A stretch of DNA of 64,000 nucleotides from a virus, in IMG/VR virus record IMGVR_UViG_3300022602_004075, positions 1 through 64,000 of that record, one strand, 5' to 3'. Numbering within the stretch: the first letter of the stretch is position 1; the number at the start of each line of letters is the position of its first letter. Below the pieces are notes generated by a model that saw only the letters and a list, made by a program, of their open reading frames with translations, did not search any database and was not told the DNA's origin. Both the position numbers and the translations under genes were made by a program. Shown here in pieces: positions 13,823 through 33,954 of this stretch.

Positions 13823-14600
13823 TGAATTTTCCTTGCATTAATTGTGTAGCCGCTTGATGTGCTGATTCTAATGGATGTGTGGCACCTACTGGGTATTTAT
13901 TCTCTACTGCCCATTGGTAAAAACCTCTTGGCTGACAAGTATCTTGTGGGTCAACTCCGGCTGGAAACCAAAACCAATGGTCATGATCAATTTGATTGTG
14001 TAGTGCTTGCACATTGGCATCGCTCATGCTGTGATTGTAAAACAGCAGGTTATCTGCGCAGGTAAACATGTAAGGTATATTGTTTAATTTTAGGTAATTT
14101 TGCAAGTATACTATTTCTTTGATACTGGAATATATTTCCCATAATTCGCTACTGCCCACATGCCGATAAAATACATTGGCAAATTCAGACATGCCAGTTT
14201 CATTTGACACTCGGGTGGCTCGTCTATGATCTTCAATCACAGAATCAATGGGATTTATAAACTCTTTGGTAACAGCATTGACGTCACCAATTCCGGTCCA
14301 GGGAGTTATAGTATACCACGGACTGTTGCGTTGACGGGTGTTGTAATCAAATCTAAATTCATAGCGTCCAGGAAAGGTCCAACTTACCAAGACTGCTAAC
14401 TGTTGTTTGTCTGATTGTTCGCATCGGTTTATAACTGTACGAGCTATCGAATCGTTGCCGTATCCGGGCCAAGCTACACAATCGTATGTGTGCTCCTGTG
14501 ACAGCAGGGCCGCAAAGGTACAGCGACTAGAACTGTCGTTGGTACAGTCCTGCAACTCGCTACCATAAACAAAACTGTCACCGCCGGCTACTATAATCAT
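13794..14600 (-). CDS. SGNH/GDSF-type hydrolase-like protein (268 aa)
   Basis: Starts MIIVAGGDSFVYGSEL, GDSF at 7-10. A GNDSIAR segment after VAWPGYG gives the block II/III Gly and Asn. The C-terminal ATHPLESAHQAA resembles the block V region of the 13080-13724 protein. This third and longest SGNH-like protein carries about 50 extra residues in the middle. It overlaps the unknown paralog gene upstream by 23 bases and the small basic peptide downstream by 29. Activity on acyl or carbamoyl substituents of a glycan is inferred from neighbours only. Confidence 0.6.
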   Translation of the reverse strand: MIIVAGGDSFVYGSELQDCTNDSSSRCTFAALLSQEHTYDCVAWPGYGNDSIARTVINRCEQSDKQQLAVLVSWTFPGRYEFRFDYNTRQRNSPWYTITPWTGIGDVNAVTKEFINPIDSVIEDHRRATRVSNETGMSEFANVFYRHVGSSELWEIYSSIKEIVYLQNYLKLNNIPYMFTCADNLLFYNHSMSDANVQALHNQIDHDHWFWFPAGVDPQDTCQPRGFYQWAVENKYPVGATHPLESAHQAATQLMQGKFNELVKKSVQ

Positions 14601-15663
14601 ATCCAGGTTTCATCATATCTATTTGCATTTGTTTGTAATTGGGATCACTCCAACAATAGTCAAATTGACCTGCAACCCCATCCACTTCAATGCTGTGTAT
14701 GTCCAAATGGTTGCCAAGTATGTTCCAAATTTGTTGATAATCTGTTGTGCCAAAGCTGGACTGTAGATCTATCTGACCCAAGGGCAGGTAACCCAGGCTC
14801 AACGTGGTATCACTGGGATCTCTATTGTTTTTGATCAACCACGCTTCAAATTCTGTTTGTTCTTGATCGTGCCACGGATGCCCACCATTGCGAACAACAT
14901 CATTGCCCCACTCAACATCAAACTCGCCCGAGTAATATTGCAGTTCAGTAATGGCTTCGCATACTGTGTCAGTGAGTTCGGGTGCGTGTTCATCACGGAA
15001 CACTTCATATAAGGTTTTGCCTATCTGTGTCCAATGCATATAAACACCACCCATGACACGATCGTATCCGTTGGTAAGAAATCCTTGTCTATGCGAATCT
15101 TTTAAATCATAGCGTTGTGCTTGTAGGAATGTGGTGATTTGGCTGGGTCGTACCCAGTAAGGATCTGTGGACAATTTGCGTTGACTCAAGATCAAGTTTT
15201 CCATTTCGTGGCAAATATTGTTTAGTTGACGAATAGCATACTTGGTGTTGTAGTCGGCACGTCGATACCAATCACTGAGCTCGCCCACAGTACCTTGTAG
15301 TCGTTCAAAGTGGTTGTGTAACCGGTTCATCATGTCATGATTGATGCCGTTTTCAGCATAGTCAAAGCCGACCACATTGTCAGGTGTGAACAATTCCCAA
15401 ATAAAGTATTCGCTATTGAAGAAAAGATTAATGGTGCGTGTGTGATTATTGAGCTCGTTGCAGAGATATTCCAATGTACGAGCAGTCCGCGGAAAGCCCA
15501 TGAAGCAAAAGTTCTTTTCCAACAGGCGACCACTTTGTAATTCGCCTTTTAGTGCGGTGATCCAATCCCGTGCCAATTCTGTATCCGTGGCCGTAATGCT
15601 GTAGTCAACTGTGTCTGTGACATCCAACGGATTGCGTAAGATTACCTTAACTGATTGAGTCAT
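14578..15663 (-). CDS. Unknown protein, paralog A (361 aa)
   Basis: I start it at the ATG at 15663 (MTQSVKVILRNPLDVTDTV), which overlaps the upstream radical SAM stop by 17 bases. No known domain is recognised. It shares a pattern with the 262-aa protein at 17939-18727: a helix with Leu-x-x-Leu/Ile-x-His-Glu (H152, E153 here), about 50 residues later a GxVxMxWxxxG segment, and near the C-terminus a GYxPLGxxDL-like segment. Both paralogs follow immediately after a radical SAM gene. The His-Glu pair could bind metal, but that is speculation. Confidence 0.6.
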   Translation of the reverse strand: MTQSVKVILRNPLDVTDTVDYSITATDTELARDWITALKGELQSGRLLEKNFCFMGFPRTARTLEYLCNELNNHTRTINLFFNSEYFIWELFTPDNVVGFDYAENGINHDMMNRLHNHFERLQGTVGELSDWYRRADYNTKYAIRQLNNICHEMENLILSQRKLSTDPYWVRPSQITTFLQAQRYDLKDSHRQGFLTNGYDRVMGGVYMHWTQIGKTLYEVFRDEHAPELTDTVCEAITELQYYSGEFDVEWGNDVVRNGGHPWHDQEQTEFEAWLIKNNRDPSDTTLSLGYLPLGQIDLQSSFGTTDYQQIWNILGNHLDIHSIEVDGVAGQFDYCWSDPNYKQMQIDMMKPGYDYSSRR

Positions 15664-16939
15664 ACCATTCCAGAGCCGCAGGTCTTGCACTCATTATGTC
15701 TCTAAAAGTATACTGATCTTTTCGAATTTTTTCAAGAGTTAATATACGTTGTTTGCCACGCAGTAAACCTGCTTGATAGGTATCAGGCCATTGTTCAGCA
15801 AATGTTGGGCGAGTTTTGAGTTGGATCATGATGTCTCGCAAGGCACCTGGATCCAACTCAGCTACAATTTCGTCTACCCAAGGATGCAATATGTCTCTGG
15901 GCAATGCCAAAGGCGACATAACAATGTCTGGACTAAACGAAAATACCACCTTTGCTAAAACGTCTACTCCGAGTTCTTTCGCGAGCGATTGTATCGCTTG
16001 TACTTCAAAGAGTCCTGGTGTAGTAAGAGTGAAGTCCATACGGACTTGGCGGCGGTGGTTGCTGTACGCAAGTCCTTCAGTGAAGTTTTTAAGCCATTCA
16101 TCAAAATCAAGACCTGATCTAATATACTCTCCAATTCGGCCCGTGCCGTCGATGCTTGCGCAGATTTGCCAGTCACGTAGCCCAGAAAGAATATCCCTAA
16201 ACAAGTTGATACCGCGATAATTGATGCGACTAAGATTTGTATTATACCGAGCGTAAACATTTTTTCCATCTCCAAGTTCTATGATGCGCTTCATGTACCG
16301 CCAGTGTTGCTCGTACATTAAAGGCTCACCTCCCACCCAATACACCTCTTCCACACGGTGTTCCTCAACAGCAGTAGCAAACTCTTGCTCTACCTGGGTG
16401 TCTTGAAACTTTTCTATTTCTACCTTGACTTCAGGACGCATCCAATTGTTTTTTGGATTTGTAAAGTCGATCATCTCGTGTTGTCGTTGCTCACTCTCCC
16501 AAGCACTACTCAACATGTCACCGCACATGCGGCACTTAAAATTACAAAGATTGCTAAATCTGTAATCCCACGAAACTGGCTTCATTGTCGTGTGGCCTGT
16601 CGCATCAGTATGTTCCATGGCTTGTAAGTACTTATGCCCAAACAAACTGTTAAAATAACTCCTGTAAACGTCGGTATTTAATATACGATCGTTACATACC
16701 TCACACTCTGGTAGTGTTTCTCCTGCCATCATCCGCCGACGTACACTCTTCATGTGCTCGCCGTTCCAGTGTTCGTCCAAAGTGATTGGTATGTAACGTC
16801 CAGTACCTGCGGCTGTGTCTATGTACTGAGTAAAACTCTGCGCAGGTTCTCTGCTGGCACAGCACATGCGTCGTTCAGTTTGTGGACTTAGGTAAGTGTG
16901 TGTCCACGGTGCCATGCACAAGGTATCGGGTCGGTTCAT
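15647..16939 (-). CDS. Radical SAM protein with N-terminal SPASM-like module (430 aa)
   Basis: The radical SAM core has CNFKCRMC (C132, C136, C139), which binds the SAM-cleaving 4Fe-4S cluster, and the SAM-contacting GGEPLM at 203-208. Before the core, not after it, sits a SPASM/twitch-like set of cysteines: CMAPW (C8), MCC (C26, C27), and CEVC (C79, C82). That set probably holds an auxiliary cluster. The segment YIRSGLDFDEW and the general layout match the other array members. It is the last radical SAM gene of the array, overlapping paralog A downstream. Substrate unknown. Confidence 0.9.
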   Translation of the reverse strand: MNRPDTLCMAPWTHTYLSPQTERRMCCASREPAQSFTQYIDTAAGTGRYIPITLDEHWNGEHMKSVRRRMMAGETLPECEVCNDRILNTDVYRSYFNSLFGHKYLQAMEHTDATGHTTMKPVSWDYRFSNLCNFKCRMCGDMLSSAWESEQRQHEMIDFTNPKNNWMRPEVKVEIEKFQDTQVEQEFATAVEEHRVEEVYWVGGEPLMYEQHWRYMKRIIELGDGKNVYARYNTNLSRINYRGINLFRDILSGLRDWQICASIDGTGRIGEYIRSGLDFDEWLKNFTEGLAYSNHRRQVRMDFTLTTPGLFEVQAIQSLAKELGVDVLAKVVFSFSPDIVMSPLALPRDILHPWVDEIVAELDPGALRDIMIQLKTRPTFAEQWPDTYQAGLLRGKQRILTLEKIRKDQYTFRDIMSARPAALEWYDSIS

Positions 16940-17955
16940 AGTGAAATATTTAATTGTTTGATCATGTCAGTAAATGTTTTATAGTCCGGACTGGTGGGCA
17001 AATGCACACATTGCGATTCAAAATCATGCCAAGTTCCCCAATCCTCCAGTACCACATAATTTGGAATCATATTATAGGTTTTGCACAGTTGGGCAAAATT
17101 TGGCATGTCCAACAGATTGTTTTTTTGTATTACAAAGTTGGCAGTGACTGGAAATTGATCAAGATCTTTGAGATATTGCAAGTTCTTTATCAGTGCTTCC
17201 CAACGACCACCACGTCGGACCTGTTCGTATACAGTCTTGGATCCAGCATCAATACTGATAAAAATATTCTTCAATTTGCTGTGCAATTGACCAAATTTCA
17301 AGGTACCATTGGTGCGTATAGTCAAACTCACATTGGTCAACGGATCAATTTGTTCCAGCAAATACAAATAAACCGGGCTGGCAAATGGTTCCCCGTTGCT
17401 GCCCAAGGTGATATCAAACTGTTTGCTGGATTTTGAAATCCACTGCACAATACGATCAACCCACAGTTGTTTTTCTTTGACATAGTCCGCGGATGCATCA
17501 AATATAACACGTTCACGGCAACTTGGGCAACTGAGATTACACCCATTATCTATTCCTATGTGCAGATATATGCAATTGGTACCAGGCTGACCTTGAGCTT
17601 GTTTTTGTATACCGCAATAACGAATATCACAAAAATCAAAAGTACGATTTGTTATGGTTGATTGTATTTGTTGCAGTTGAGTAGATGCCAACACCCGATC
17701 AATCGAGTCAAAATCCAATATGTGGCCTGAAGGAAATGGCAACCAGCCATCGCAATCACAATGAAACACACGTCCTTTGTAGTCCATGTTAATGGTGTTG
17801 AAAGGTTTATGGCAGTGATGAACTACGCCAGACTTGACTCGCGGTAGTTGATCCAGCTGTTGTTTGTATTTGATATCATGGTCCACATCGTCCCAGTTGT
17901 CAGGACGAGTTTTGATATTCCACGATCCGTGTGTGGGCTTAGTCACTGAATTCAA
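16936..17955 (-). CDS. Radical SAM protein, divergent member (339 aa)
   Basis: Core motif CNLSCPSC (C139, C143, C146) and a GGEP-equivalent SNGEP at 186-190. The N-terminal cysteines differ from the other members: C48, C66, C68, C109, C114 and C128, with MDYKGRVFHCDCDGW in place of the usual pdG-x-x-x-PCC line, and the CxPW start replaced by CHKPF. An auxiliary cluster is still plausible. It is the shortest complete radical SAM protein that keeps the N-terminal cysteine module, and lies directly downstream of paralog B (17-base overlap) and upstream of the 430-aa member (ATGA). Confidence 0.88.
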   Translation of the reverse strand: MNSVTKPTHGSWNIKTRPDNWDDVDHDIKYKQQLDQLPRVKSGVVHHCHKPFNTINMDYKGRVFHCDCDGWLPFPSGHILDFDSIDRVLASTQLQQIQSTITNRTFDFCDIRYCGIQKQAQGQPGTNCIYLHIGIDNGCNLSCPSCRERVIFDASADYVKEKQLWVDRIVQWISKSSKQFDITLGSNGEPFASPVYLYLLEQIDPLTNVSLTIRTNGTLKFGQLHSKLKNIFISIDAGSKTVYEQVRRGGRWEALIKNLQYLKDLDQFPVTANFVIQKNNLLDMPNFAQLCKTYNMIPNYVVLEDWGTWHDFESQCVHLPTSPDYKTFTDMIKQLNISL

Positions 17956-18727
17956 TCCGATCCAACTCCAGTACTGGTGCCTGGGCCACTGTTGCCAAAT
18001 CGTCCAAGTTGGTCACATGACCAACCACTGGATAGCCTATATAACTGGCAATTTTTTCTTCAGTATGTTGCTGAACAAATGCCGGTGCGTGGATTTTGAA
18101 TTTGTTTAGGATCTCGTCAACATTGACCTGATAAGTAAAATTGTGTATTGCAATGTTGATACCGGGCCTAACAAAATTGTGAAACTTACAGGTTTGTGGA
18201 ATGTTTGTAAAATCTTGTTCCAAGTAGACCTGTAACGGTCCATGCCCGACCCAGGGATTTTGCAATTTTACTTGACCAAATTTGAGATTGTGTTGGAATA
18301 TGTCGGTGGTTGCTAATTCAAAGCCAGCATCATTGAACCATTCAATCTGTAGCCAAGCATCTCTCAATGAGTTTTGCGGACTCTGTATGATATGTAAACA
18401 GTAGTGTAACTCGTGCAACAGGTGATCCAGTTCAGCTGGCACAGAATCAAATCCATTGGCCAACAACTGTTCTATATCTTTGTGTAATAGTGCCGTAACA
18501 CCAACATCGTACTGATCAAAAGTCCACTCCCACCCTAAGCATTGTTTGGCCTGCTGTGCCAACGATAACATGTAATCAACCGTGTATTTGGGCCTGTCTC
18601 TAAATATGGGAGTTTGTTGTTGATAATTTTCTTTGACCAATTGGTAATAGCTTCTGCCAAGATCGCTGGTGTCAATTGACAAATGTACCGCAGGCAAATT
18701 TTTAAATACAATATCAATCACTGACAT
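17939..18727 (-). CDS. Unknown protein, paralog B (262 aa)
   Basis: No known domain. Compared with paralog A (14578-15663) it has the same spaced pattern: LDHLLHELHYC with H105-E106, then FGQVKLQNPWVGHGPL at about 150-165, and YIGYPVVGHVTNL near the end. It is about 100 residues shorter, lacking the extended N-terminus of A. It sits between two radical SAM genes (overlaps of 10 and 17 bases). A role as partner, carrier or substrate of a radical SAM protein is inferred only from this repeated arrangement. Confidence 0.55.
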   Translation of the reverse strand: MSVIDIVFKNLPAVHLSIDTSDLGRSYYQLVKENYQQQTPIFRDRPKYTVDYMLSLAQQAKQCLGWEWTFDQYDVGVTALLHKDIEQLLANGFDSVPAELDHLLHELHYCLHIIQSPQNSLRDAWLQIEWFNDAGFELATTDIFQHNLKFGQVKLQNPWVGHGPLQVYLEQDFTNIPQTCKFHNFVRPGINIAIHNFTYQVNVDEILNKFKIHAPAFVQQHTEEKIASYIGYPVVGHVTNLDDLATVAQAPVLELDRIEFSD

Positions 18728-20361
18728 AACATTGCTATTTCCGGTATAACATCAAATATATTTTCGTTGCGAATTTTGTCTAGTTTGGCAGTCCTGTCCC
18801 AGAATTCTCGTTGTACAACTTGATTGTCTTGTCCCATCATAAAATCTATAGCCGAGGTCCACAAATCAATTTGTCGTTTTGTACCTGTGTGTGTGGTTAG
18901 CCAATCAATATGATTTAAATATTTTTGTCTGACTTGTTCTTTTGAGTACTTGTGTGCTATATCAATTCGCAGATGTGTCGGTTGTAACAACAGATGAAAT
19001 TTGATATTTTTTGCCTCTACCAGACCTTGCTCTATCCAGGACCTGTGAAAATCTGGCAAGTGCCACATGTTTAATACACTCAAGGTTGACGAAATCCCAA
19101 AACGTGCATCTGGACACACTGACATCATTTCTCGACGGTTTTGTTCTATAGTTGACCAATCAGTACCTTTTCTCATATACTCGGCATGAGGGCCCATTGC
19201 ATCTAAACTGGCATCAATGATCACAGTCTTGAACCGTTTCCATCGTTCAAATACCGGGGTTCCTTTGTATTTCAAATTGGTAAAATTGGTATTGTAATAC
19301 AGTATTACATCAAATCTGTTTCGTTTTTCCAGTTCATCCAAGATCCAATAGTGCTCGTCCATGATCAAGGGTTCTCCGCCAGCAAAATAAATGTGTTCAA
19401 CAAAATCCAAATGCGGTATCAACTGTTCTTGAATATCCAATTTATGTCGACCTGCTTTGATAACAGCAACCGGGTGTTTACTAACAAAGTTGGGTTCTAA
19501 TTGAAGTTGATCTTTGTACCAGTTGCTTGATAAAGTAGGGCCACAACTGCGACAACTCAAATTACAGATATTGCTGAATCTGACATCCCATCTTATCAAT
19601 TCAAATTTGTCCAAATGGCCGGTCTCTGTGGTGTTGTGTATTTTATGCACATGATGTTTAAATTTGCCATTGGCCATTAGCCGTCCAGATTCAAGTCCGT
19701 ATATTTCGCTTTCGTAACACTTGACACAGGTTGCGGACAAGTTTTCGGTCAACATGGATACACGTAATGTTTTCATTGCATCTGAATTCCATATGGTCTC
19801 CAAGGAATCTGCGTTGGAATCGCCGAGTGGTTCTGATGCTTCACAACATGGCATGACAGAACCGTCTGGATTTATATTAAGATGCATCCACGGGTACATA
19901 CAAAAAGTTTTTGATTTTGTTAAGTAATGGTGTTCTTTTTCTTCGGTATCAGCAAATTCAACATTGACTGGTTCAATTGGCGTTTCAGTTGATGTGTAAT
20001 ATTCAATCAATATTGGCATGTCGTGATTGTGTTTGTCAAGCGTGTGTCTTAGCTCTTTATTGTGCTCAGTCCGATTCAACAGTAACACAACAAAAAACGT
20101 TGGTATGTCAACAGTATTGAGTACTGTCTGCAACACTTTAACACATTCAAGAGTGGTTCTGGTATTACAAATGGTTGAATCAAAAGTAAAAATTAATCTA
20201 TCATTATCATCAAATTGATCGTACCGTTGCGTTAATAATTTTAATTGTTGGGTTAACACCAGCTCCATTTTAAAAAAATTGTCAGCATGTTGGTTCATAT
20301 CAATGTATTCTAACACATTGTATTGTTCTGTGTATGACAGCATCAATTGATCTTTGGTCAT
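18718..20361 (-). CDS. Radical SAM protein with extra N-terminal domain (547 aa)
   Basis: The longest member. Residues 1 to about 145 are an additional domain with alternating helices and strands (DRLIFTF, DIPTFFVVLLL, MPILIEYY), not seen in its neighbours. Then come the SPASM-like module (C154 in CMYPW, C172-C173 in PCC, C212 and C215) and the core CNLSCRSC (C266, C270, C273) with AGGEPLIM around 327-334. The segments RFSNICN, YYNTNF and DFHRSWIEQGL are near copies of those in the 22558-23865 protein, so these two are close paralogs. The upstream neighbour ends one base before its ATG. Confidence 0.9.
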   Translation of the reverse strand: MTKDQLMLSYTEQYNVLEYIDMNQHADNFFKMELVLTQQLKLLTQRYDQFDDNDRLIFTFDSTICNTRTTLECVKVLQTVLNTVDIPTFFVVLLLNRTEHNKELRHTLDKHNHDMPILIEYYTSTETPIEPVNVEFADTEEKEHHYLTKSKTFCMYPWMHLNINPDGSVMPCCEASEPLGDSNADSLETIWNSDAMKTLRVSMLTENLSATCVKCYESEIYGLESGRLMANGKFKHHVHKIHNTTETGHLDKFELIRWDVRFSNICNLSCRSCGPTLSSNWYKDQLQLEPNFVSKHPVAVIKAGRHKLDIQEQLIPHLDFVEHIYFAGGEPLIMDEHYWILDELEKRNRFDVILYYNTNFTNLKYKGTPVFERWKRFKTVIIDASLDAMGPHAEYMRKGTDWSTIEQNRREMMSVCPDARFGISSTLSVLNMWHLPDFHRSWIEQGLVEAKNIKFHLLLQPTHLRIDIAHKYSKEQVRQKYLNHIDWLTTHTGTKRQIDLWTSAIDFMMGQDNQVVQREFWDRTAKLDKIRNENIFDVIPEIAMLCQ

Positions 20362-21573
20362 TTAATATCCCATTGCTGTTGCTATTTCTGTGTGTGTATC
20401 TGCAAAGTTTTGTTTTCTGTAAGCATCAGTTTGTTGCATCTGTCGCAAAAATTCTGCGCCGTCACTGCCTGATCCCAATTCAATAAATTTGATCACATTG
20501 TCTATTTCTTGTTGATAGCGGCTGGTGGACCAGAATGTTGTTTTTAGTTTGTTCAACACCAGTTGTTTGGCCTTGGGTGTCATGTGCTGTACGTTCATGT
20601 GTTCAGGACTGTGCAACATGTTGAAATACACGCTGCCCCATGGTTTGGTATCAGCCCAGGCCAACAGCTCGTCCAAGTAGTACACATTCTGTATATTGAT
20701 AGTAAAGCATAATTGCGTTGTGATGTTGGGGCACATGTCTTTTTTGGCAAAGTGAGTGCGATCAATATTGTCATTGACTTCGGCCCACTTGGCGCCAAAA
20801 CGCTCGTATTCAAAACGTTCGCCCACATTGTCAATACTGAAAGCAATGTCTACTCGACCAAATTGATTCCATAATGGCACATGTGGCAACGGACTTTGAG
20901 TACCATTGGTGTTGTAGTGTATGTCAATGTTCTGACTGTAACCTTGATCCACTGCGTATTGTAGCAGATCAAAATGTTCCTGGATCATCCAAGGTTCGCC
21001 GCCGGTGAATTCAAAATATTTGATATTGGGAATCAACTCTCGCATGTTGTCCCAAAAGGTTTTGGTTTTGCGTGGCCAAGCACCTTGCTTGAGCCAGGTA
21101 TAGGCTATGTGCGACTTTTTAGGAACGTCAGCGGGCAAATAAGCCATTTCTTCCTCGGCCCATTTGCTACTGCTCCATGACCCACAAATACGACATTTGA
21201 GATTACAAATATTGCCCAGTTTCAAATCCACAAACCACAGTTGGTCAGGATTATCGTTGGCCCAGTCAACTTGATTGTACAGGTGTTTTAGTCTCACTTG
21301 ACTGTGTATACGTTTACTGTCACGACCAGCTGCCTCTTCATCCCAACAACGTCTACAAGTTTCTGGCTTTTCACCTTGACGAAATTCTTTGCGTAACTGT
21401 TGCATATATTCGCTGTGATAAACGGTTTCCAAGTCAGTGTGATTTAAATCATACTTGGCTCCGTACTCGTCACGTATTTCGTCGTGTGCCAAACAGCAAG
21501 GTCGTGTAGTACCCATTGGACTGGTTTCAATTGAAATCCAAGGCAACATACAGATAGTTGATGGTAGTGTCAT
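20362..21573 (-). CDS. Radical SAM protein with N-terminal SPASM-like module (403 aa)
   Basis: N-terminal module: CMLPW (C8), PCC (C26, C27), CRRC (C73, C76). Core CNLKCRIC (C123, C127, C130) and GGEPWM at 191-196. An INIQNVYYLDELLAW segment aligns with the equivalent segment of the other members. The start overlaps the stop of the 331-aa member by 4 bases (ATGA). Members of this kind use the 5'-deoxyadenosyl radical to modify peptides, sugars or cofactors; which applies here is unknown. Confidence 0.9.
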   Translation of the reverse strand: MTLPSTICMLPWISIETSPMGTTRPCCLAHDEIRDEYGAKYDLNHTDLETVYHSEYMQQLRKEFRQGEKPETCRRCWDEEAAGRDSKRIHSQVRLKHLYNQVDWANDNPDQLWFVDLKLGNICNLKCRICGSWSSSKWAEEEMAYLPADVPKKSHIAYTWLKQGAWPRKTKTFWDNMRELIPNIKYFEFTGGEPWMIQEHFDLLQYAVDQGYSQNIDIHYNTNGTQSPLPHVPLWNQFGRVDIAFSIDNVGERFEYERFGAKWAEVNDNIDRTHFAKKDMCPNITTQLCFTINIQNVYYLDELLAWADTKPWGSVYFNMLHSPEHMNVQHMTPKAKQLVLNKLKTTFWSTSRYQQEIDNVIKFIELGSGSDGAEFLRQMQQTDAYRKQNFADTHTEIATAMGY

Positions 21574-22565
21574 ACTCGTACTCCGCAGGTGGCGTTGCAG
21601 GCAAACAGTTTGCCCTCAGGCACACTGGCACAGTTCCAGGATTGTTCTACACGAGTAAACCACTCAATTGCAGTTTCAAGTCCGTGTTCAAGTGCGTTGT
21701 TGTGTTCCATTATTTGTTTCAGTTGAGGATTGGTTGGTTGACGATCACTGTGTCCAGGATAAAAGCCCAACCAACAGCAAGGGTACACTTCGCCATTGGC
21801 TGCCACATATACATCTGCATTTCGTTTGGCATAGCAATCGATTGAGTAGTTGCGTGTTTCATTTTGTACTGTACCCCATGGTTCAATTTTGTAATGCTCG
21901 GTATGTAGGTGTACTGTTTCAAAATCTGTAGGACCTTTGTATTTGCCAATGGTGTGACTGAACTTGCGGTCTGGTGTAAACACCGGCATGGTGTCACGAC
22001 CAGCATCTACCAAATCAAAACGATCAAAGCCCATGCTTTTGCTGAGTTCGCGAGCTGTTTCAATTTGATGTGCGTTATGATCAAACTTTATCATGGCCCA
22101 CACCGCACGACCACCAGCGGCAATAAATTTCTTGGCATTGTCCAGTATGAAATTGTAGTCGGTATTTTGTCTATACAGATGATGTGTATCTGCCAGGCCA
22201 TCCAGTCTAAAATACACGGTGCATCCGAGTTCGCCCAGTCTGGACCAAATTTTAGGTTGTCCACTGGCATTGGTACTGATCTGTATCAACAGACCAGGAT
22301 TGATCTCACGCAGATATTCAACTATGACCAAGCCGTCTCGGGCCGTAACAAAGTCTCCGTAGTTGCCATTGATCAAAAAAACTGTGAGTTGACGTATAAA
22401 ATCTGGCTGGAATATTTTTTTAAATTGTTCCAGTTTCATGTCTAATACCGGATAAGTATCAACAATATCCACACCACGGAAATTGCGAGGGCAGTCAGGA
22501 CAAGCAGCATTACAACGTGTGCTGATTTCTAAATGAACTCCGCGTATATCTCGATAGTTATACAT
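21570..22565 (-). CDS. Radical SAM/SPASM protein, canonical domain order (331 aa)
   Basis: The only array member with the usual order: the radical SAM motif CNAACPDC comes first (C18, C22, C25) and the SPASM-like cysteines last (C244, C263-C264 in PCCW, C312, C323, C327). The GGEP motif is replaced by INGNYGD at 65-71, a variant seen in SPASM enzymes that process peptides or nucleotides (family knowledge, from memory). The position in mid-array suggests the same pathway, with a different reaction. Overlaps are 4 and 8 bases. Confidence 0.9.
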   Translation of the reverse strand: MYNYRDIRGVHLEISTRCNAACPDCPRNFRGVDIVDTYPVLDMKLEQFKKIFQPDFIRQLTVFLINGNYGDFVTARDGLVIVEYLREINPGLLIQISTNASGQPKIWSRLGELGCTVYFRLDGLADTHHLYRQNTDYNFILDNAKKFIAAGGRAVWAMIKFDHNAHQIETARELSKSMGFDRFDLVDAGRDTMPVFTPDRKFSHTIGKYKGPTDFETVHLHTEHYKIEPWGTVQNETRNYSIDCYAKRNADVYVAANGEVYPCCWLGFYPGHSDRQPTNPQLKQIMEHNNALEHGLETAIEWFTRVEQSWNCASVPEGKLFACNATCGVRV

Positions 22566-23865
22566 TCTTGATATCTGTCAACTCAGGAAATACTGCAAAG
22601 AAGTCTTCTTTGCGTACTTGGTCTATTAGGTCGTTGGTCCTAAAAAAGTTAGGTAACTCGTGTGTGCTGTCGTTGGCCATCATAAAGTTGATAACTCCTT
22701 CGTAGCCAGATGTGGCACGAGTAAGTGTATCTAATGGACGTAACCATTCCAAGTGTTGCTCAATTTTGTCACGTGCTTGTTCTTTCAAGTGTTGAGGCAA
22801 CACATCAACCCGATAGCGGAACGGATGCTGTAGTATATTGATGTTCCAATCCATCGGACGTAACAGTCCCAGATCTACCCATTCACGATGGAAATCGGTG
22901 ATATGCAACACATTCATCATGCTGACTGTGCTGGACACATAAAAGTCCACGTTGGGACATATTTCAATCATGCGTTCGCGATTTTCAACTGTTTGCTTCC
23001 AGTCCTGTCCCTTGCGTATATATTCGCCGCGCTCGTAACTACCATCAAGGCTGGCTCCAACACTGACGCAATCAAACAGTTTCCACATTTCAAATACATC
23101 ACGACCTTTGAACTTCATTTCACTAAAGTTGGTGTTGTAGATCAAACGCACATGGAACATTTCACGCTTGACCAATTCGTCCAGCACTTTCCAGTGCTCT
23201 TTCATGATTAGTGGTTCTCCACCAGCCCAGTAGATCTGTTCAAGATGTGGAATATGCTCTTGCATCTGTTCCCACATGTCGTCTTCGTCTTTGCCGGCAT
23301 ACATGATCATTGGATGTTTTGGGTCCCATCCTGCAGCCTTTTCATCCTTGTACCAATTGCTACTAAAGATACCACCGCACGTACGGCAAGCAAAATTGCA
23401 AAGGTTACTAAAGCGGATATCATAGTAACGTAGTTTAAAATCATCATATTGTCCATCCGGTTTGGTGTCGTCCACAATGTTGATCAAGTGTCCAAAGTTC
23501 TTGTTGGCACTTTCTCTCATGCTGAACAGCTTGGCTTTTTCTTGTTCATAGCACTTGGTACATTCGCGACTGGGTTGTTCAGTGAGCATGTTGTGACGCA
23601 TGTCTTTGAGCGGTTGTTGATTCCAAATTTCACGCATGGTGTGTGTTTTGAGATTGCCAATGGGATAGTCGGGCTCGCTTAGACAACAAGGAAAAGCACG
23701 ACCATCTGGAAAGGCATGCATATGAATCCACGGAATCATACAGAACGAGTCGCTCTTGATCAAGCGATCAAGTTGATCGGGTCTTAGATCTTTTTCGTCA
23801 ATGTATACTGGCTTGCGAGCGCCGTAGTTGTAATTTTTGTAATAATCGTTGATATCTTCTGCCAT
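22558..23865 (-). CDS. Radical SAM protein with N-terminal SPASM-like module (435 aa)
   Basis: Module: CMIPWIHMHAFPDG (C42), PCC (C60, C61), CTKC (C102, C105); the pDG-x-x-x-PCC line is the textbook SPASM signature placed N-terminally. Core CNFACRTC (C156, C160, C163) with WAGGEPLIM at 213-221. The C-terminal half is closely similar in pattern to the 547-aa member (WYKDE, DFHREWVDLGL). The first 40 residues are acidic and Tyr-rich. The start shares one base with the stop of the upstream member (TAATG). Confidence 0.92.
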   Translation of the reverse strand: MAEDINDYYKNYNYGARKPVYIDEKDLRPDQLDRLIKSDSFCMIPWIHMHAFPDGRAFPCCLSEPDYPIGNLKTHTMREIWNQQPLKDMRHNMLTEQPSRECTKCYEQEKAKLFSMRESANKNFGHLINIVDDTKPDGQYDDFKLRYYDIRFSNLCNFACRTCGGIFSSNWYKDEKAAGWDPKHPMIMYAGKDEDDMWEQMQEHIPHLEQIYWAGGEPLIMKEHWKVLDELVKREMFHVRLIYNTNFSEMKFKGRDVFEMWKLFDCVSVGASLDGSYERGEYIRKGQDWKQTVENRERMIEICPNVDFYVSSTVSMMNVLHITDFHREWVDLGLLRPMDWNINILQHPFRYRVDVLPQHLKEQARDKIEQHLEWLRPLDTLTRATSGYEGVINFMMANDSTHELPNFFRTNDLIDQVRKEDFFAVFPELTDIKNV

Positions 23866-25214
23866 TATAATGTCCTATACCATTCTGCCAATGCAGGGAA
23901 TGTTTGTTCAAAGTTCTTGTTGCGACGTTGGTCGTATTGTTGATAAAACAGTTTGAAATCTCTTTGTAAAACAGTTTGTTCCATTGCACCCGAATGTGGT
24001 GTTATGACCACATCAAGGTAATCAATTAATCGCTTCAATTGATCAATTTCAAAGCCATGCAACGCACCGGTGTCTTGGTGTGTTTTGTAAAATGTACTTA
24101 ATCGTGTTCTATACTGGGTTCGAATATGATCTGGCAATACCAGCGGACTTTGAAAACTTGGAAAGCGTAATATATTTAGCGAGAAATTGATCGAGTCACG
24201 ACCGTATTCCAATTTCCAGTTGTATACCATTTCTAAGAAACTGTCCAGGCTGTCCAAACATAGTGCATTGATGGTTGCCATCACATGCAGGCCGCGGAAC
24301 TTGCCACTGTTTAACAGGCGTTCTACATTGTTGGCCCAGTCATCAAATACCAAACCGTCTCGGACATATTCAGCCTGCAGATTCATAGCTTCGTTACTGG
24401 TATATAAATCAACTTCGACGCCATCTATGGCTGTCAGCAATCGATCAATGTCTACATCGGTGCCCAGGTTGCTGTTGATTGCAAGACGTGTTGTTGATTT
24501 GCCCTTGTTGGTTTTGAACCATTCTATCAGCTTCCAGGTTTCTGCACTCATCAGAGGTTCGCCCCCGGTGATGCGCAATTCTTTTAGTGTTCTGTGCAGG
24601 TCTGATTCCCACCACTTGTGGAACGCTTCCACATAAGGATTTGGTTCGCCAAAACGATACAATTGACTTGAATCATGAGTGTGAGTAAAGTGATTGCGTC
24701 CGTCGCTGACAAGATTGACATAGGGACCATTTTGTTTGATATCTTTGACCCAGGTGCTGCTGAATGCCGGATTACAATAACTGCAAGCAAACTGGCAAGT
24801 ACGGTCAAACGCAATTTCCAGTGTTTGTAAATCCACGTCTTGATCTGCAGGAGTATTGTAAGCGAGATCCAAATCTGCGTCATTGTATATAACTGTTTTG
24901 TAAACACGGTCGCTGATGTTGTCGCGGCCAATGTCTTCAATCTTCCAGCAGTATTCACAACCTGTAGGACGTTCGCCCGCTTGCATTTGAGCACGTTCGG
25001 ATTTTTTCTTTGGCGTATTGTGTAGGGCTTTGGGGTTTGCTTCGACTTCGGCCACACTGACTTGATGCGGTAGCGGATGATGACACGAAGTGGTCTGTCC
25101 TGACCCCAACCAGATGGTAGCATTGTACCACTTGGCTCCACAGAAGCTGTCCGACTTGATGTCGATCACTCGGCGGCGATATTCTAAATCTGTTTCGTTA
25201 TTAATTCTCGGCAT
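23865..25214 (-). CDS. Radical SAM protein, CxxKW subtype (449 aa)
   Basis: Module variant with CGAKWYNATIWLGSG (C25), a single SCHHP cysteine (C44) in place of the CC pair, and CEYCW (C86, C89). Core CQFACSYC (C140, C144, C147) and TGGEPLM at 216-222. The same variant (CLAKW, SCYHPP, CSYCW and an N-P-Y-V-x-A-F segment) occurs in the 26476-27861 protein, so the two form a subtype pair. Both end with a QRRNKNFEQTFP/QRRQTNFLETFP motif. The start lies 31 bases inside the previous gene. Confidence 0.92.
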   Translation of the reverse strand: MPRINNETDLEYRRRVIDIKSDSFCGAKWYNATIWLGSGQTTSCHHPLPHQVSVAEVEANPKALHNTPKKKSERAQMQAGERPTGCEYCWKIEDIGRDNISDRVYKTVIYNDADLDLAYNTPADQDVDLQTLEIAFDRTCQFACSYCNPAFSSTWVKDIKQNGPYVNLVSDGRNHFTHTHDSSQLYRFGEPNPYVEAFHKWWESDLHRTLKELRITGGEPLMSAETWKLIEWFKTNKGKSTTRLAINSNLGTDVDIDRLLTAIDGVEVDLYTSNEAMNLQAEYVRDGLVFDDWANNVERLLNSGKFRGLHVMATINALCLDSLDSFLEMVYNWKLEYGRDSINFSLNILRFPSFQSPLVLPDHIRTQYRTRLSTFYKTHQDTGALHGFEIDQLKRLIDYLDVVITPHSGAMEQTVLQRDFKLFYQQYDQRRNKNFEQTFPALAEWYRTL

Positions 25215-26479
25215 TGTTCCAGTTCCGGTATGTAATCTGCAAGTTTAACTCCCCTGCTGTGGTCAAGTGTGTCGTTGTAATCAAAAAATGCAGTCAATTG
25301 ATGTTTATCAAATTCGGTTTGTTTGATCATGTTAATGAAATAATCTACTTTGTTGGCAAAGTATGATTCGGTACAATAACTTTTTGTTTGCTTCAACTGC
25401 TCCAGGCGCTCAATAGCAAGTTCTTTATTGGGAAAATTAAATGGCCAATACACGCCTTTGGAGGACTGGTTTAATAAAATTGTGGGTGGATGCGGTAATA
25501 CATCATCCAAGAACACCACCAACTCATACAGTCTTGTGATGTTGTACAAACTGACAGTGACGTTGACCGAAATATCTTCAGTGATTGTTTTGAGTGTTTC
25601 AATATTTTTTGTGATTGTTTCCCAATCAGCTGGCCAACGAATGTATTTATTCACCGAGCCATACCCATCCAAACTCAAAGTAAAAGATATATTTTTAAAA
25701 CGTTTCAACAAAGCCAAAATATTTTTATTTACATTTGTGGTATTTGTAATAATGGTCAACGCAATATCAGTGCGTCCTTTACTGATTGCAGTTTCTAAAA
25801 ATTTAGTGAACTCTGGCATGATAGTGGGTTCGCCACCGGCAATATATACCTGTTCTACTGTATCATAATCTACTATTTCTGACAGTTTGGTTTGATTGCT
25901 GTTTGGTTTAAATTTCCAATGCAATTTTTTATATTCTTTTTCAAGTTGAGTGCTGGAAGCCGGGCGGCAAGTACGACAAGCAAGATTGCATAGGTTATCA
26001 TTGCGTATGTCGTAGTATTTTAATTTTGGTTCTACGTTGTTGATGTCGGTACTGCCCAATTTGGATAACCACATTTTGGTATAACGCATCCGAGAACTTA
26101 CACCACCGCTGTCTTCCATTGAATAACAATAGTTGCAAGATTTTACACGTTCCCCCGATTTCATTGCAGATCTAACTTTTTCAAAATCTGCATCTTTATA
26201 AAAATCAAATGAGCTGTTGTTTTCTTTCAAGCTGTCGCTGTAGCAACACAATGCAATTTGGTTAGTTTCATTTATGTACATCTGTACAAATGGCAGTATG
26301 CAAAACGCCTTGTTGTCAAGCAACTGTTGATCGATCAAAAAACTGCCAGGAACATAACCAAATTTGCCAACACACTCGTCTTTGATGTTGTCGGGTAACA
26401 AATAGAACTGTTCTTCTGATGGGCAATCTGGCCAGGAATCGGCACGTATTGTATTATAAAATGATTGCCAGTCGTTCAT
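25184..26479 (-). CDS. Radical SAM protein with N-terminal SPASM-like module (431 aa)
   Basis: I use the ATG at 26479 (MNDWQSFYNTIRADSW), which overlaps the upstream stop (ATGA), rather than one 30 bases earlier. An extra N-terminal segment (1 to about 55) precedes CILPFVQMYIN (C60), LCC (C78, C79) and CNYC (C115, C118). Core CNLACRTC (C164, C168, C171) and AGGEPTIM at 214-221. The protein is Asn/Lys/Thr-rich and its gene is more AT-rich than the flanking members, hinting at separate origin rather than recent duplication. Confidence 0.9.
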   Translation of the reverse strand: MNDWQSFYNTIRADSWPDCPSEEQFYLLPDNIKDECVGKFGYVPGSFLIDQQLLDNKAFCILPFVQMYINETNQIALCCYSDSLKENNSSFDFYKDADFEKVRSAMKSGERVKSCNYCYSMEDSGGVSSRMRYTKMWLSKLGSTDINNVEPKLKYYDIRNDNLCNLACRTCRPASSTQLEKEYKKLHWKFKPNSNQTKLSEIVDYDTVEQVYIAGGEPTIMPEFTKFLETAISKGRTDIALTIITNTTNVNKNILALLKRFKNISFTLSLDGYGSVNKYIRWPADWETITKNIETLKTITEDISVNVTVSLYNITRLYELVVFLDDVLPHPPTILLNQSSKGVYWPFNFPNKELAIERLEQLKQTKSYCTESYFANKVDYFINMIKQTEFDKHQLTAFFDYNDTLDHSRGVKLADYIPELEQCRELITKQI

Positions 26480-27861
26480 TGTTGTCCGTAGTACTTGCAC
26501 TCGTTCCAAAACTCCCGCATCTCCGGGAAAGTCTCTAAAAAATTGGTTTGTCGACGCTGATCGTGTTCATTAAAGAAACGATAAAAGTCTGCACGTTGTA
26601 GTTTAACATAGCCAGGATCCAAATTGCGACCTTCCTTCATCCAGTCGATGTCACGGCGCATACGTTGTACTTCGTAGTCCTTGAATCCGTGAAATGGATC
26701 CTCGGCTGTTTCTAAATTCAGCTCCATCCAGTCGGCCACACGTTCCAATACCCCCACATACACTTCAGGCAATATTTGTAAACTTTGCCAAGTGGGTGTG
26801 CGTAGTAATGGAGTATCAAACCAAACACGTTGGTAGGTTGTGCTGTGGGCTCTACGTAGACTCAATATCCAATCCAGCTGGCTTTGTAAGCCCAGTACAC
26901 TGAGATTGTTCATGGTGATAATAAATGTCAGGCTGTTGCGATATGGAACTTCGGTAAGGTATCTTTCAACATAGTGCGACAGTCTACGTGGATCCAACCC
27001 GTGTCTAATGTAAGCAGCATGTTTCCAGTTGCCTGAATCCAAGCTGACATATTGCATAAAATGTTCAATGTTGGTATTGCATAGATTTTTAACATAGCCC
27101 AGGTACCGTTCAAACAGGGCCGGCTCTACAGAGAAGTTACTGGTCACATTTAAGTGTAGTTCAGGATTGGGCATGGCCAACACATAGTCAAACACTTTGT
27201 AGGTGTTTCGATCCATCAATGGCTCACCGCCGGTCATACGGAAATGTTTTAGCTGGGGGTACAGTTCAGGCCACCACTCCCAAAATGCGTCAACGTAGGG
27301 ATTGGCGTCACGAGCAGGAATAGGGCGATTGCGACCAGTAAAGTGACTGGGATCATTGTGTATAGTGCTAGTAGGATATCCGCCCCAACGATCGGCTTCT
27401 GCTTGCCAACTTGAACTAAATTGTGGACTGCAATAACTACAAGCCAAATTACAGGCGTGATTAAAATTAACTTCAACATAACTAGGAACCACATCATTTT
27501 CTTCTCCGGTTGAATTTTTGATTGTATCGTATGCTTCTGCTGCCCAAGGTTCGCCTGATCTATAATGACGATCACTCAATTGATCGTGCGCTTCAATATT
27601 CCAGCAATAAGAGCACTCGCTGGGTTTTTCGTTTTTAAGCATGATAACACGTTGCTGTTTCTTATGCTCGGTGTTGTGTAGTGCACCAGGATTTGTTTTG
27701 ATTGCTTCTGCGTCAATGGCATGCAAGGGTGGGTGATAGCAACTGTTGTTGAGCCCGGTGGGCAAATGTAGACTCACCTGCTTCCATTTGGCCAAGCAGA
27801 GTGCAGGACCAAGATCCTGTTTCATTTGTTCGGCTGCTGATAAAAACTTACTTTTGCTCAT
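26476..27861 (-). CDS. Radical SAM protein, CxxKW subtype (461 aa)
   Basis: First radical SAM gene of the array in transcription order. Module: CLAKWKQVSLHLPTG (C22), SCYHPP (C41), CSYCW (C83, C86). Core CNLACSYC (C137, C141, C144), TGGEPLM at 210-216. It resembles the 23865-25214 protein throughout, including the NPYVDAFWEWW segment before the GGEP strand and the C-terminal QRRQTNFLETFPEM. It is preceded by a 30-base gap, the only non-coding gap between genes of this operon. Confidence 0.92.
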   Translation of the reverse strand: MSKSKFLSAAEQMKQDLGPALCLAKWKQVSLHLPTGLNNSCYHPPLHAIDAEAIKTNPGALHNTEHKKQQRVIMLKNEKPSECSYCWNIEAHDQLSDRHYRSGEPWAAEAYDTIKNSTGEENDVVPSYVEVNFNHACNLACSYCSPQFSSSWQAEADRWGGYPTSTIHNDPSHFTGRNRPIPARDANPYVDAFWEWWPELYPQLKHFRMTGGEPLMDRNTYKVFDYVLAMPNPELHLNVTSNFSVEPALFERYLGYVKNLCNTNIEHFMQYVSLDSGNWKHAAYIRHGLDPRRLSHYVERYLTEVPYRNSLTFIITMNNLSVLGLQSQLDWILSLRRAHSTTYQRVWFDTPLLRTPTWQSLQILPEVYVGVLERVADWMELNLETAEDPFHGFKDYEVQRMRRDIDWMKEGRNLDPGYVKLQRADFYRFFNEHDQRRQTNFLETFPEMREFWNECKYYGQQ

Positions 27862-27891: not shown

Positions 27892-28788
27892 TCATTCTCT
27901 TATCATGGGTCCACGATTGCGAAATTGACTCTTGTAGTGTTGCTTGAAAAATGCACTGGCATCAGGATCCATATCCACTATAGGCAAACTCAGTTTGGTA
28001 CGTAAAATATCGCCTATGTTGGCACATTGGTCTGCTCCATCATGTTCAAAACTTTTCCATAGTGCAGACAACACATCAAAGTTCTGCACATCTCGATAGT
28101 TCCACCCTTCCAGCATCATCATATATGTGCCAAGACGTGCTCCATATATGGCCCAAAATCCGTTGTCGGCATCGGCTCCCACTGATTGCCAAATACACAG
28201 GTTGTCATAGTTGCGACTGTTTACCCGACTTTCAAATTCTTGTAGCGTGGGCTTGGCACCACGATCTAAACACATCTTGACACCTTCTCTAAAGCCGGCA
28301 CGCCAGGCTTGGAATGGTGTGGCATTGGGATATGTGGTGCTATAGCAATCGGCCATGGCCCAGTAGTTGGGATAAAAGCAAAACTCCACATCGTTGGCCG
28401 CGGTTCCATCTGAAGCTTCGTGTGTACGCATTGCGTAAACAAATTCTTTGGTCCAGCAACTCATACCACCGTTGCCGTACATCAATCCGTTAACAGCGTT
28501 ACGAGCCCGCCAACGAAAAACGCAAGAGTCATTAGTATTGTTAAGGGCCAGTTGCAGGTTGAAAAAATCAGGATCTGGAATATTATCTCCGTCAATAAGA
28601 ATAAAACGGTCTGTATCGCTTGCATCTGCAGCCGCTTTGTGAGCGGCATCACTGCCTTTAACTCCGTCCACTCGCTTGGCCCACGGTACCATGTTTTGGA
28701 TTCTGATCCAGTTGGTTTCTTTGTTTGGTTCGTCATAGGTTAAAAATATACAATCCAAGTCTGCTACATCAATAATTTGGTCGCTCAT
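27892..28788 (-). CDS. Glycosyltransferase-like protein (298 aa)
   Basis: GT-A-like start: LDCIFLTYDEPNKETNW, then RFILIDGDNIPDPDFF (about 77-92), where DGD is a DxD-like metal/nucleotide-sugar site. Later motifs are NGLMYGNGGM and PFQAWRAGFREGVKM. The same motifs appear in the C-terminal part of the 610-aa repeat protein at 6964-8796, so this is a compact version of that family. It probably transfers a sugar in the cytoplasm. It overlaps the upstream gene by 20 bases and lies directly before the radical SAM array. Confidence 0.65.
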   Translation of the reverse strand: MSDQIIDVADLDCIFLTYDEPNKETNWIRIQNMVPWAKRVDGVKGSDAAHKAAADASDTDRFILIDGDNIPDPDFFNLQLALNNTNDSCVFRWRARNAVNGLMYGNGGMSCWTKEFVYAMRTHEASDGTAANDVEFCFYPNYWAMADCYSTTYPNATPFQAWRAGFREGVKMCLDRGAKPTLQEFESRVNSRNYDNLCIWQSVGADADNGFWAIYGARLGTYMMMLEGWNYRDVQNFDVLSALWKSFEHDGADQCANIGDILRTKLSLPIVDMDPDASAFFKQHYKSQFRNRGPMIRE

Positions 28789-33930: not shown

Positions 33931-33954
33931 CGTTGATCCTTTATTCTCTTAGTA

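Follow-up and report, generated by a model that had tools for sequence, protein, structure and literature searches.

In an uncultured giant bacterial virus, nine genes for radical SAM (rSAM) enzymes, iron-sulphur catalysts of demanding reactions, lie head-to-tail on the minus strand at 15647–27861 of the DNA analysed here, a window of 64,000 nucleotides (positions 1 to 64,000 of IMG/VR record IMGVR_UViG_3300022602_004075). Ten minus-strand genes, designated A to J, fill this interval with gaps of –34 to 0 bp, i.e. they overlap or abut, and nine of the ten encode a CxxxCxxC motif, which is absent from C (17939–18727). Among six-frame open reading frames of at least 100 aa, the window holds 12 CxxxCxxC matches, nine of which belong to this run and one to a further real rSAM gene. 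The concentration of 9/12 matches in the run, together with cysteines that are invariant or nearly so, argues that the nine proteins are not a product of chance. A first-pass annotation of the window had recognised the nine CxxxCxxC proteins in one run, as we confirm here; the length range it gave (339–547 aa) is corrected to 331–547 aa, F being the shortest.

Comparison across about 300 loci divides the nine rSAMs into a fixed five-enzyme core, J-H-G-E-A, and four accessories, I, F, D and B. The core comprises A (15647–16939, 430 aa), E (20362–21573, 403 aa), G (22558–23865, 435 aa), H (23865–25214, 449 aa) and J (26476–27861, 461 aa). The accessories are B (16936–17955, 339 aa, with a TTG start), D (18718–20361, 547 aa, with an N-terminal extension of ~147 aa), F (21570–22565, 331 aa) and I (25184–26509, 441 aa), the last found in a minority of operons. 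Seven of these proteins score 275–409 bits against N_Twi_rSAM (NF033640), above its curated cut-off of 170 bits over the whole profile (A 290, D 375, E 339, G 409, H 290, I 275 and J 283 bits). B (60 bits) and F (15.6 bits) fall below it, so that we rejected the assignment of all nine to this one family; both match the Pfam Radical_SAM profile (PF04055) above its cut-off, with 43 and 30.4 bits respectively. Two more N_Twi_rSAM genes lie downstream, outside the range first noted, and bring the 68.7 kb record to 11 rSAM genes. The tenth, K63, occupies 63035–64000 on the plus strand and continues to 64207 of the record (206 bits); the eleventh, at 65272–66726 of the record (301 bits), is flanked by putative homologues of gp47 and gp46.

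C, an accessory gene of 262 aa with orthologues in 12 loci, has no match in Pfam, NCBIfam or PHROGs. It is indeed the only gene of the run without CxxxCxxC; a comparison with X, the gene that follows A, does not establish its proposed paralogy (hhalign probability 3%, E 0.014 across ~90 residues).

CxxxCxxC was found in every full-length distinct orthologue checked of all nine rSAM genes, and the rSAM and auxiliary cysteines of each core gene are invariant or nearly so in 114–128 sequences. In A, the auxiliary cysteines are N-terminal and twitch-type (C8, C26, C27, C79 and C82), CxxxCxxC lies at 132, and nine cysteines are 100% conserved in 116 sequences. The cluster cysteines of B are conserved in 15 sequences. 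F carries CxxxCxxC near its N-terminus and a C-terminal SPASM/twitch-like set (C244, C263, C264, C323 and C327), conserved in 9/9 sequences. A conserved auxiliary set, as for a SPASM/twitch auxiliary [4Fe-4S] cluster, is thus present in all nine rSAMs, and not in the eight originally credited with one. Only D, E and G pass the cut-off of the Pfam SPASM profile itself.

The predicted model of a natural G-E fusion has the rSAM fold, a partial TIM-barrel, in both halves (pLDDT 90), with uncertain domain packing (pTM 0.60); the other members of the run are assigned by profile only. Structural neighbours of the model at Z ~11–12 include the sugar and nucleotide enzymes BlsE, DesII and viperin as well as the peptide enzymes anSME, SkfB and SuiB, and CteB and ChlB are further neighbours. 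Degenerate, cluster-free cores, which the first-pass annotation had named as a sign against its pathway reading, were not seen: both halves fold as rSAMs and the cluster ligands are conserved. By profile and motif, and for the G-E fusion also by fold, the nine proteins can be placed in the rSAM superfamily and are predicted to cleave SAM reductively to the 5′-deoxyadenosyl radical.

On the J side, the run is bordered by minus-strand glycosyltransferase and presumed tail-fibre genes. GT1 (27892–28788, 298 aa) is a GT-A-like glycosyltransferase with an invariant DGDN (D66, D68) and a weak match to Pfam Glyco_tranf_2_3. Upstream of it lie u121 (28769–29134), a small conserved protein defined by synteny, and two putative glycosyltransferases, GT2 (29103–29966, 287 aa), which has a weak likeness to GT3 (25% by blastp), and the GT8-like GT3 (29953–30774, 273 aa), with an invariant DxD (D102, D104). 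The small conserved protein u104 (30743–31057; 63/65 loci) adjoins TF322 (31127–32095), a Thr/Ser/Gly/Asn-rich protein presumed from composition and conservation to be a tail fibre. Neither u104 nor u121 has conserved cysteines or repeated core motifs. Four more presumed tail fibres of 604, 653, 975 and 567 aa occupy 32116–40606, as judged by composition and blastp among window proteins; the N-termini of three of the four are related, and the 975-aa protein is 31% Gly. The window also encodes a baseplate wedge gene (52602–55595) and, on the plus strand, a T4-type late sigma factor gp55 (62146–63066; phrog_12791, 271 bits; 45% identical to that of PA5oct). The T4 late promoter motif TATAAATA is not enriched (1 match versus 2.65 expected) and so lends no support to late expression together with the tail genes, and scans for sigma-70 promoters and terminators gave no excess above shuffles.

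Beyond A, the minus strand continues with X (14578–15690, 370 aa), SGNH2 (13794–14600), SGNH1 (13080–13724) and a carbamoyltransferase, CTase (11621–13105), which places the glycosyltransferases, carbamoyltransferase and SGNH proteins in the same gene run, as the first-pass annotation had it. X yields a confident model (pLDDT 90), whose fold has no PDB match and recurs only in uncharacterised phage proteins; its best VIA-align rows are cyclophilin-like at Z ~8, the stated noise level of the tool. SGNH2 resembles SGNH/GDSL-type hydrolases or acyltransferases, with GDS, GxxN and HP blocks that are invariant or nearly so, and is related to the SGNH-like SGNH1 (Pfam DUF6071, 29.7 bits; weak GDSL). 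CTase matches Carbam_trans_N and the C-terminal domain (PF02543 and PF16861) far above cut-off, at 117 and 160 bits, and has TobZ, GdmN and the novobiocin carbamoyltransferase as PDB relatives, identifying it as a member of the NodU/TobZ O-carbamoyltransferase family. Enzymes of this type carbamoylate sugars and antibiotics. The P-loop kinase-like k278 (10126–10962, minus strand; weak APS_kinase/AAA) lies 3' of CTase in many relatives, and a DegT aminotransferase and an epimerase (4949–6980) are encoded on the strand opposite to the operon. Searching the PDB by profile from X, GT1, u393, GT3, SGNH2 and C returned no significant relative.

The core and the sugar genes recur in 85 distinct operons in one order: the TF322-u104-GT3-GT2-GT1 block, then J-H-G-E-A, then X-SGNH-carbamoyltransferase. 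These operons hold five rSAMs in 49 cases, six in 26, seven in nine and eight in one; with nine, the window operon has the highest count. J, H, G and E are all present in 50/52 distinct loci selected by GT1 with at least 8.5 kb downstream, and in 61/62 loci selected by A with at least 8.5 kb upstream. X and CTase follow A in 64/64 loci, while GT2 and GT3 precede GT1 in 65/65 and TF322 does so in 64/65. Such synteny can endure inside one phage lineage without functional linkage. Mean identities are 57–73% for the rSAM enzymes, 68% for GT1 and 41% for TF322; since the enzymes and GT1 are far better conserved than TF322, the latter is not obviously a co-evolving substrate. Mirror-tree correlations among the module proteins are moderate (0.2–0.8, with no baseline) and are not counted as evidence.

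The accessory rSAMs differ between close relatives, and some marine relatives have fewer rSAMs than the core set. Among 43 marine loci, u104-GT3-GT2 is retained in 43 and TF322 in 40, with one to six rSAMs and never none; J is the usual one when single, and follows GT1 in most of these loci. This suggests that the extra rSAMs are added decorations, and a tail-fibre/glycosyltransferase block that runs with a single rSAM implies that most rSAMs cannot be obligatory consecutive steps. The multi-step pathway proposed in the first-pass annotation is thus borne out in part: the five core rSAMs co-occur with the sugar genes in a fixed order and form fusions, but nine steps of a single pathway are not supported, since operons can lack I, F, D and B and the marine block makes do with as few as one rSAM.

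Neighbouring core genes are naturally fused, G-E in 19 loci and J-H in one contig (L112/L190), all as intact open reading frames, and an rSAM(+SPASM)-GT1 fusion is found in a bacterial MAG of the Oligoflexia (L312). These fusions link the enzymes concerned functionally. Each of J, H, G, E and A has a clade of its own in our tree, and each has its counterpart in a chromosomal cluster of Bacteriovoracaceae; D is placed beside a Bacteriovoracaceae gene (SH-aLRT 95) and not with phage G. Separate clades with individual bacterial counterparts support the view that the core rSAMs diverged anciently and did not arise by recent amplification, in agreement with the earlier judgement that the nine are diverse. 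On the chromosome of the Bacteriovoracaceae MAG UBA6144 (L233), counterparts of H, A, E, G and J are clustered, with eight rSAM genes in ~12 kb; GT1, X and tail-fibre genes are absent. As the whole core set exists there without GT1 and X, the rSAM chemistry can evidently do without the phage sugar and tail genes. Bdellovibrio-like bacteria have 9–17 N_Twi_rSAM matches each, and a Pfam tally of 109 genes flanking chromosomal N_Twi_rSAM genes revealed no dominant partner. We found no published description of these chromosomal clusters in the literature searched. Single members occurring freely had been named as a sign against a joint pathway, and this is seen to a degree: members occur without the others in marine phages, and without GT1 and X in Bdellovibrio-like bacteria.

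The expectation that phages carry none to a few rSAM genes is broadly right, although phages with 8–12 have been published (PMC2853527, PMC5332604, PMC12390700). The T4-related Campylobacter phages CP220 and CPt10 have 11–12 rSAM genes, and a swappable cluster holds five of these (PMC2853527). The 11 Radical_SAM matches of CP220, a cultured phage, include no N_Twi member (best 31 bits against the 170-bit cut-off) and represent a different rSAM family, partnered by a glycine amidinotransferase instead of the glycosyltransferase/CTase set seen here. Aeromonas phage 332-Vera encodes eight rSAM genes in a structural cluster with five tail-fibre genes (PMC12390700); it belongs to a different, Chimalliviridae-like family, and the likeness drawn here is by description only. 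The 183-kb uncultured T4-like genome TARA_ERS488813_N000010 has 12 rSAM genes, read only as Fe-S proteins served by a phage IscU/ATC, and its description includes no gene-order or partner analysis of them (PMC5332604). Our marine loci (e.g. L293 and L321) resemble the pelagimyophage host-recognition cluster, a variable island of T4-like phages with tail fibres, glycosyltransferases and rSAM cassettes (PMC7029224). That cluster is defined by tail fibres and glycosyltransferases between VrlC and gp14; the locus described here adjoins tail-fibre genes and a baseplate wedge gene in a genome with a T4-like late sigma factor, and gp14 was not located. Whereas the pelagimyophage rSAMs are described as cassettes added in variable fashion, the rule here is a core of five rSAMs in constant order, extended to up to nine. 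The literature searched describes neither a fixed set of five N_Twi_rSAM members nor such fusions, nor the coupling of the set to a tail-fibre/glycosyltransferase block.

These data are best read as a modular tailoring system that acts on a glycan or protein of the host-recognition surface, be it of the virion or the host. With a probability of roughly 0.4, the run would form one end of such a system, tied to the tail-fibre region in a clade of large, uncultured T4-like phages. GT3, GT2 and GT1 may assemble a sugar on some surface component that is produced or needed late in infection; the tail fibre or virion of the phage itself is the likeliest candidate. The rSAMs, with J paired to H and G to E, would then take hydrogens off that sugar or its carrier protein, leading to epimerisation, dehydrogenation or cross-linking, and the SGNH proteins and CTase would put on or take off acyl and carbamoyl groups. 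How elaborate the product is could depend on how many rSAMs there are, from one in some marine relatives through the fixed core of five to the nine of this phage; a variable number would fit a fast-changing surface decoration. More tentatively, we envisage a radical-enzyme assembly line that puts non-canonical carbon-centred chemistry on the receptor-binding tail fibre, with the rSAM set as a variable decoration code and a core that is self-contained in predatory Bdellovibrio-like bacteria.

The same enzymes could instead remodel a host envelope glycan (O-antigen or capsule) against superinfecting competitors, acting on nucleotide- or lipid-linked sugars like BlsE and DesII, which are among the nearest structures of the G-E model. 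An envelope-glycan role was proposed by Zaragoza-Solas et al. 2020 (PMC7029224) for the host-recognition glycosyltransferases of pelagimyophages, where the rSAM cassettes were seen, and related CTase and rSAM genes lie close together in some bacteria. We consider this less likely, as the operon itself has no recognised gene for a membrane protein, a flippase or a nucleotide-sugar pathway, and almost every locus ties the block to tail-fibre genes. Peptides are the substrates of most characterised SPASM/twitch rSAMs, and anSME, SkfB, SuiB, CteB and ChlB are structural neighbours here; the rSAMs might accordingly be RiPP-like maturases of a secreted or virion-borne phage peptide or protein, with the sugar genes as a separate neighbouring system, a view to which the core set without GT1 in Bdellovibrio-like bacteria lends weight. 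The overlapping run genes leave no space for a precursor-peptide gene, however, the neighbouring u104 and u121 lack core-peptide features and an rSAM-GT1 fusion is known, which makes this explanation unlikely.

DNA hypermodification, in which CTase, the glycosyltransferases, the k278 kinase and the rSAMs would decorate hydroxymethylated bases as in thymidine and cytosine pathways, has a precedent in a phage 5-hydroxymethylcytosine carbamoyltransferase with the same Pfam pair as CTase (PMC8670742). The module genes sit with tail fibres, however, no TET/JBP-type or hydroxymethylase gene is recognised, and a PF00303 gene is absent from 5/14 module-bearing (possibly incomplete) records. The thymidylate-synthase-like gene of the window and all nine such genes of relatives carry Asn at the 177-equivalent (PFN[IV]), as in dUMP enzymes; with Asn and not the Asp of dCMP hydroxymethylases at this position, we rejected cytosine hydroxymethyl-DNA modification, and hypermodification as a whole appears very improbable. 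Hardly more credible are auxiliary metabolic genes that raise host metabolism or cofactor synthesis, a reading published for the rSAM genes of CP220 and CPt10 (PMC2853527): there is no above-cut-off match to rSAM families of known cofactor pathways, and the set keeps company with genes for tail fibres and glycosyltransferases, not metabolic ones. That paralogues of little function merely piled up in a recombination-prone tail-fibre region would explain why accessory rSAMs vary among close relatives and why all N_Twi members belong to one family. Against a fixed core order, cluster cysteines that do not vary across more than 110 sequences per core gene, ancient core clades and natural fusions kept as intact open reading frames, we deem this the most improbable explanation.

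For 15 years, phages rich in rSAM genes have been on record but unexplained. Here, the rSAM count resolves into a five-enzyme core with defined partners and fusions that name enzyme pairs; the marine single-rSAM version provides a minimal form and the Bdellovibrio-like MAGs a bacterial chromosomal counterpart. The role of the phage rSAM enzymes thereby becomes directly testable, with GT1 and J as the smallest set. The system, seven of whose nine rSAMs share an N-terminal twitch-like Cys cluster and rSAM core with N_Twi_rSAM, also offers a first handle on this family, whose entry names no function. Should the tail fibre prove to be the target, this would represent a new kind of virion modification.

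The window covers bases 1-64000 of an IMG/VR virus record that is 68,749 bases long. The ten minus-strand genes at 15647-27861 of the window (A to J) overlap or abut one another, and nine of the ten ORFs encode a CxxxCxxC motif; the tenth, C (17939-18727), lacks it. Full-length matches to NF033640 (N_Twi_rSAM), at 275-409 bits with a cut-off of 170 bits, were obtained for A, D, E, G, H, I and J, and the general Radical_SAM family was the only family matched by B and F. The motif and the profile matches confirm the observation of the first-pass annotation, nine radical SAM (rSAM) genes in one run. Some of its details had to be revised: the shortest enzyme has 331 residues rather than 339, additional conserved cysteines occur in all nine rather than in eight (N-terminal in eight, C-terminal in F), and C did not emerge as a paralogue in the comparisons made. 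Two further N_Twi_rSAM genes on the plus strand, one adjoining a gene read as a T4 gp55 homologue (63035-64207 of the record) and one beside genes read as gp47 and gp46 homologues (65272-66726 of the record), bring the record to eleven. D (18718-20361, minus strand) and this eleventh rSAM align over an N-terminal extension of about 110 residues preceding the twitch region (blastp from residues 38 and 33, respectively), where the other rSAMs differ.

Three viral scans, with G, A and the putative glycosyltransferase GT1 as queries, returned at least 210 loci, so the system is abundant. The gene order is constant: TF604-TF322-u104-GT3-GT2-(u121)-GT1-J-H-G-E-A-X-(SGNH2-SGNH1)-CTase-(k278), where TF604 and TF322 are presumed tail-fibre proteins, u104 and u121 small conserved proteins, GT2 and GT3 putative glycosyltransferases, X a conserved 370-aa protein, SGNH1 and SGNH2 SGNH-like proteins, CTase an O-carbamoyltransferase and k278 a kinase-like P-loop protein. 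Co-occurrence was counted over distinct sequences with sufficient flank, fusions being allowed. Among the matches listed, J, H, G and E lie together downstream of GT1 in 50 of 52 loci and upstream of A in 61 of 62; all 64 loci counted for A have X and CTase downstream of it, and GT1 is preceded by GT2 and GT3 in 65/65 loci and by TF322 in 64/65. Since the counted loci are the best-scoring for each query, these counts describe this clade and not phages at large. Five rSAM genes are present in 49 of the 85 distinct GT1-to-X operons among the matches listed, six in 26, seven in nine and eight in one; the window operon, with nine, has the highest number of the operons compared. Its extra genes occupy slots in which other operons also have accessory genes: the J-H slot takes I, the G-E slot F, and the E-A slot B, C and D. 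Relatives often have copies of another family, u393 (8795-9976 of the window, plus strand, with paralogues in operons), inserted beside J or A. This family has no Pfam match, and by eye we take its conserved TEKIFKP...PF motif to resemble GT10/GT47 glycosyltransferases. Residues 388-577, in the C-terminal part of a 610-aa protein (6964-8796, minus strand), are related to GT1 at 29% identity.

Nearly all loci that apparently lacked E or H in a first count carry a fusion instead. In 19 loci (L029 and L162 among them), G and E are one fused ORF of about 840-860 aa; J and H share a 903-aa ORF in one contig (L112/L190). L312:16386-18293 of an Oligoflexia MAG encodes a further fusion, between a GT1-like glycosyltransferase domain and an rSAM whose SPASM domain scores near the threshold. 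Fused neighbouring genes are classical evidence for partners that act together.

A smaller version was found in a survey that started from the GT1 protein of L293, a marine relative, and yielded 80 loci, 52 of them distinct. All 43 marine loci that include the flank retain the u104-GT3-GT2-GT1 block, and 40 of them also retain TF322. Directly after GT1, an N_Twi_rSAM gene stands in 42 of 50 marine loci (counted by hand from the listing), mostly of J type and once of B type, and the number of rSAM genes within 9 kb downstream ranges from one to six and is never zero (29 marine loci). Thus what stays constant is the tail-fibre and glycosyltransferase block plus one or more rSAMs, to which others have been added; this favours modular decoration over a series of nine obligatory steps. 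The multi-step modification pathway proposed in the first-pass annotation is therefore partly supported: co-inheritance, fixed order and fusions speak for it, but nine obligatory steps do not fit marine relatives with one to six rSAMs.

Each of the core enzymes (J, H, G, E and A; 114-128 sequences per gene) retains its rSAM and auxiliary cysteines in 99-100% of sequences. A model of the natural G-E fusion of L162 (851 aa; pLDDT 90, pTM 0.60) is confident for the individual domains but not for their packing. Both halves match rSAM enzymes, namely viperin, BlsE (cytosylglucuronate decarboxylase), anSME, SkfB, CteB, DesII, SuiB and ChlB; as sugar/nucleotide and peptide enzymes are both among these, the fold is compatible with either kind of substrate. 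X was also modelled with a pLDDT of 90, and profile and fold searches of the PDB found no solved relative; its only fold matches are uncharacterised phage proteins. SGNH2 carries the SGNH catalytic blocks, the DxD motifs of GT1 and GT3 are invariant, and CTase belongs with the NodU/TobZ enzymes.

A tree of 101 sequences divides phage A, E, G, H and J into supported clades of their own, each with a counterpart from a single cluster of eight N_Twi_rSAM genes in a Bacteriovoracaceae UBA6144 MAG (L233:6046-18042). This cluster looks chromosomal because it is flanked by genes that, by eye, we take to be Obg, L27 and Lgt. The window's D groups with the G-like gene of UBA6144 (SH-aLRT 95) and not with phage G. 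Seven Bdellovibrio-like MAGs hold 9-17 N_Twi matches each, X being present in one and GT1 in one. From these sequence comparisons, the core set is ancient, moves as one unit and has no strict need of the phage sugar genes.

The record is T4-like, with the late sigma factor gp55, a baseplate hub and a baseplate wedge, and its T4-like proteins are closest, among cultured phages, to those of large phages such as PA5oct, GAP32, CBB and Sinorhizobium phage Phosso (36-45% identity). Of these, the three searched for N_Twi_rSAM genes (GAP32, PA5oct and Phosso) lack any gene above the cut-off. GT1, J, X and TF322 had no match among 50,697 phage records, and for A and G there were only weak Vibrio phage relatives; among the records searched, the system is therefore known from uncultured phages only. 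Related records (24, of 96-374 kb) hold 5-16 N_Twi matches each. The cultured jumbo phage Phosso (PV764938) has a cluster of four non-N_Twi rSAM matches at 185.9-192.4 kb. Module-bearing phage contigs also lie inside bacterial MAG bins (L222-L225, L259 and L293; Verrucomicrobia, Pelagibacter, Rickettsiales and Rhodobacteraceae). Amid the structural genes of the window, one 3768-aa ORF (41296-52602, minus strand) takes up about 16% of the record, and a presumed tail-fibre protein of 975 aa with 31% glycine (35972-38899, minus strand) coincides with the strongest GC skew of the window (-0.234).

Phages with many rSAM genes have been described before: there are 11 in Campylobacter phage CP220 and 12 in CPt10 (PMC2853527), 12 in a T4-like Tara genome (PMC5332604) and eight within the tail-fibre cluster of Aeromonas phage 332-Vera (PMC12390700). 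In pelagimyophages, the host-recognition cluster has been observed to contain rSAM cassettes (PMC7029224). The CP220 enzymes belong to a different rSAM family from the N_Twi_rSAM of this module, and we found no description in the literature of the fixed core, its fusions or its association with GT1 and the tail fibre. The arrangement is real, abundant and undescribed; the enzyme family itself is known.

Co-inheritance, order, fusions, conserved cluster ligands, the rSAM fold of G and E and the tail-fibre neighbourhood are established for the module. In the mechanism we propose, the glycosyltransferases would attach sugars to a surface component, the rSAMs would modify either the glycan or its carrier, and J/H and G/E may act as pairs. 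Hydroxymethylation of DNA cytosine is disfavoured as the role of the module, because the ThyA of module-bearing records is of the dUMP type (Asn177 equivalent) or absent; the residue at 177 separates the dUMP type from the hydroxymethylating type of enzyme (PMC8670742). Among the candidate targets of modification, the host envelope comes next after our leading choice, the virion.
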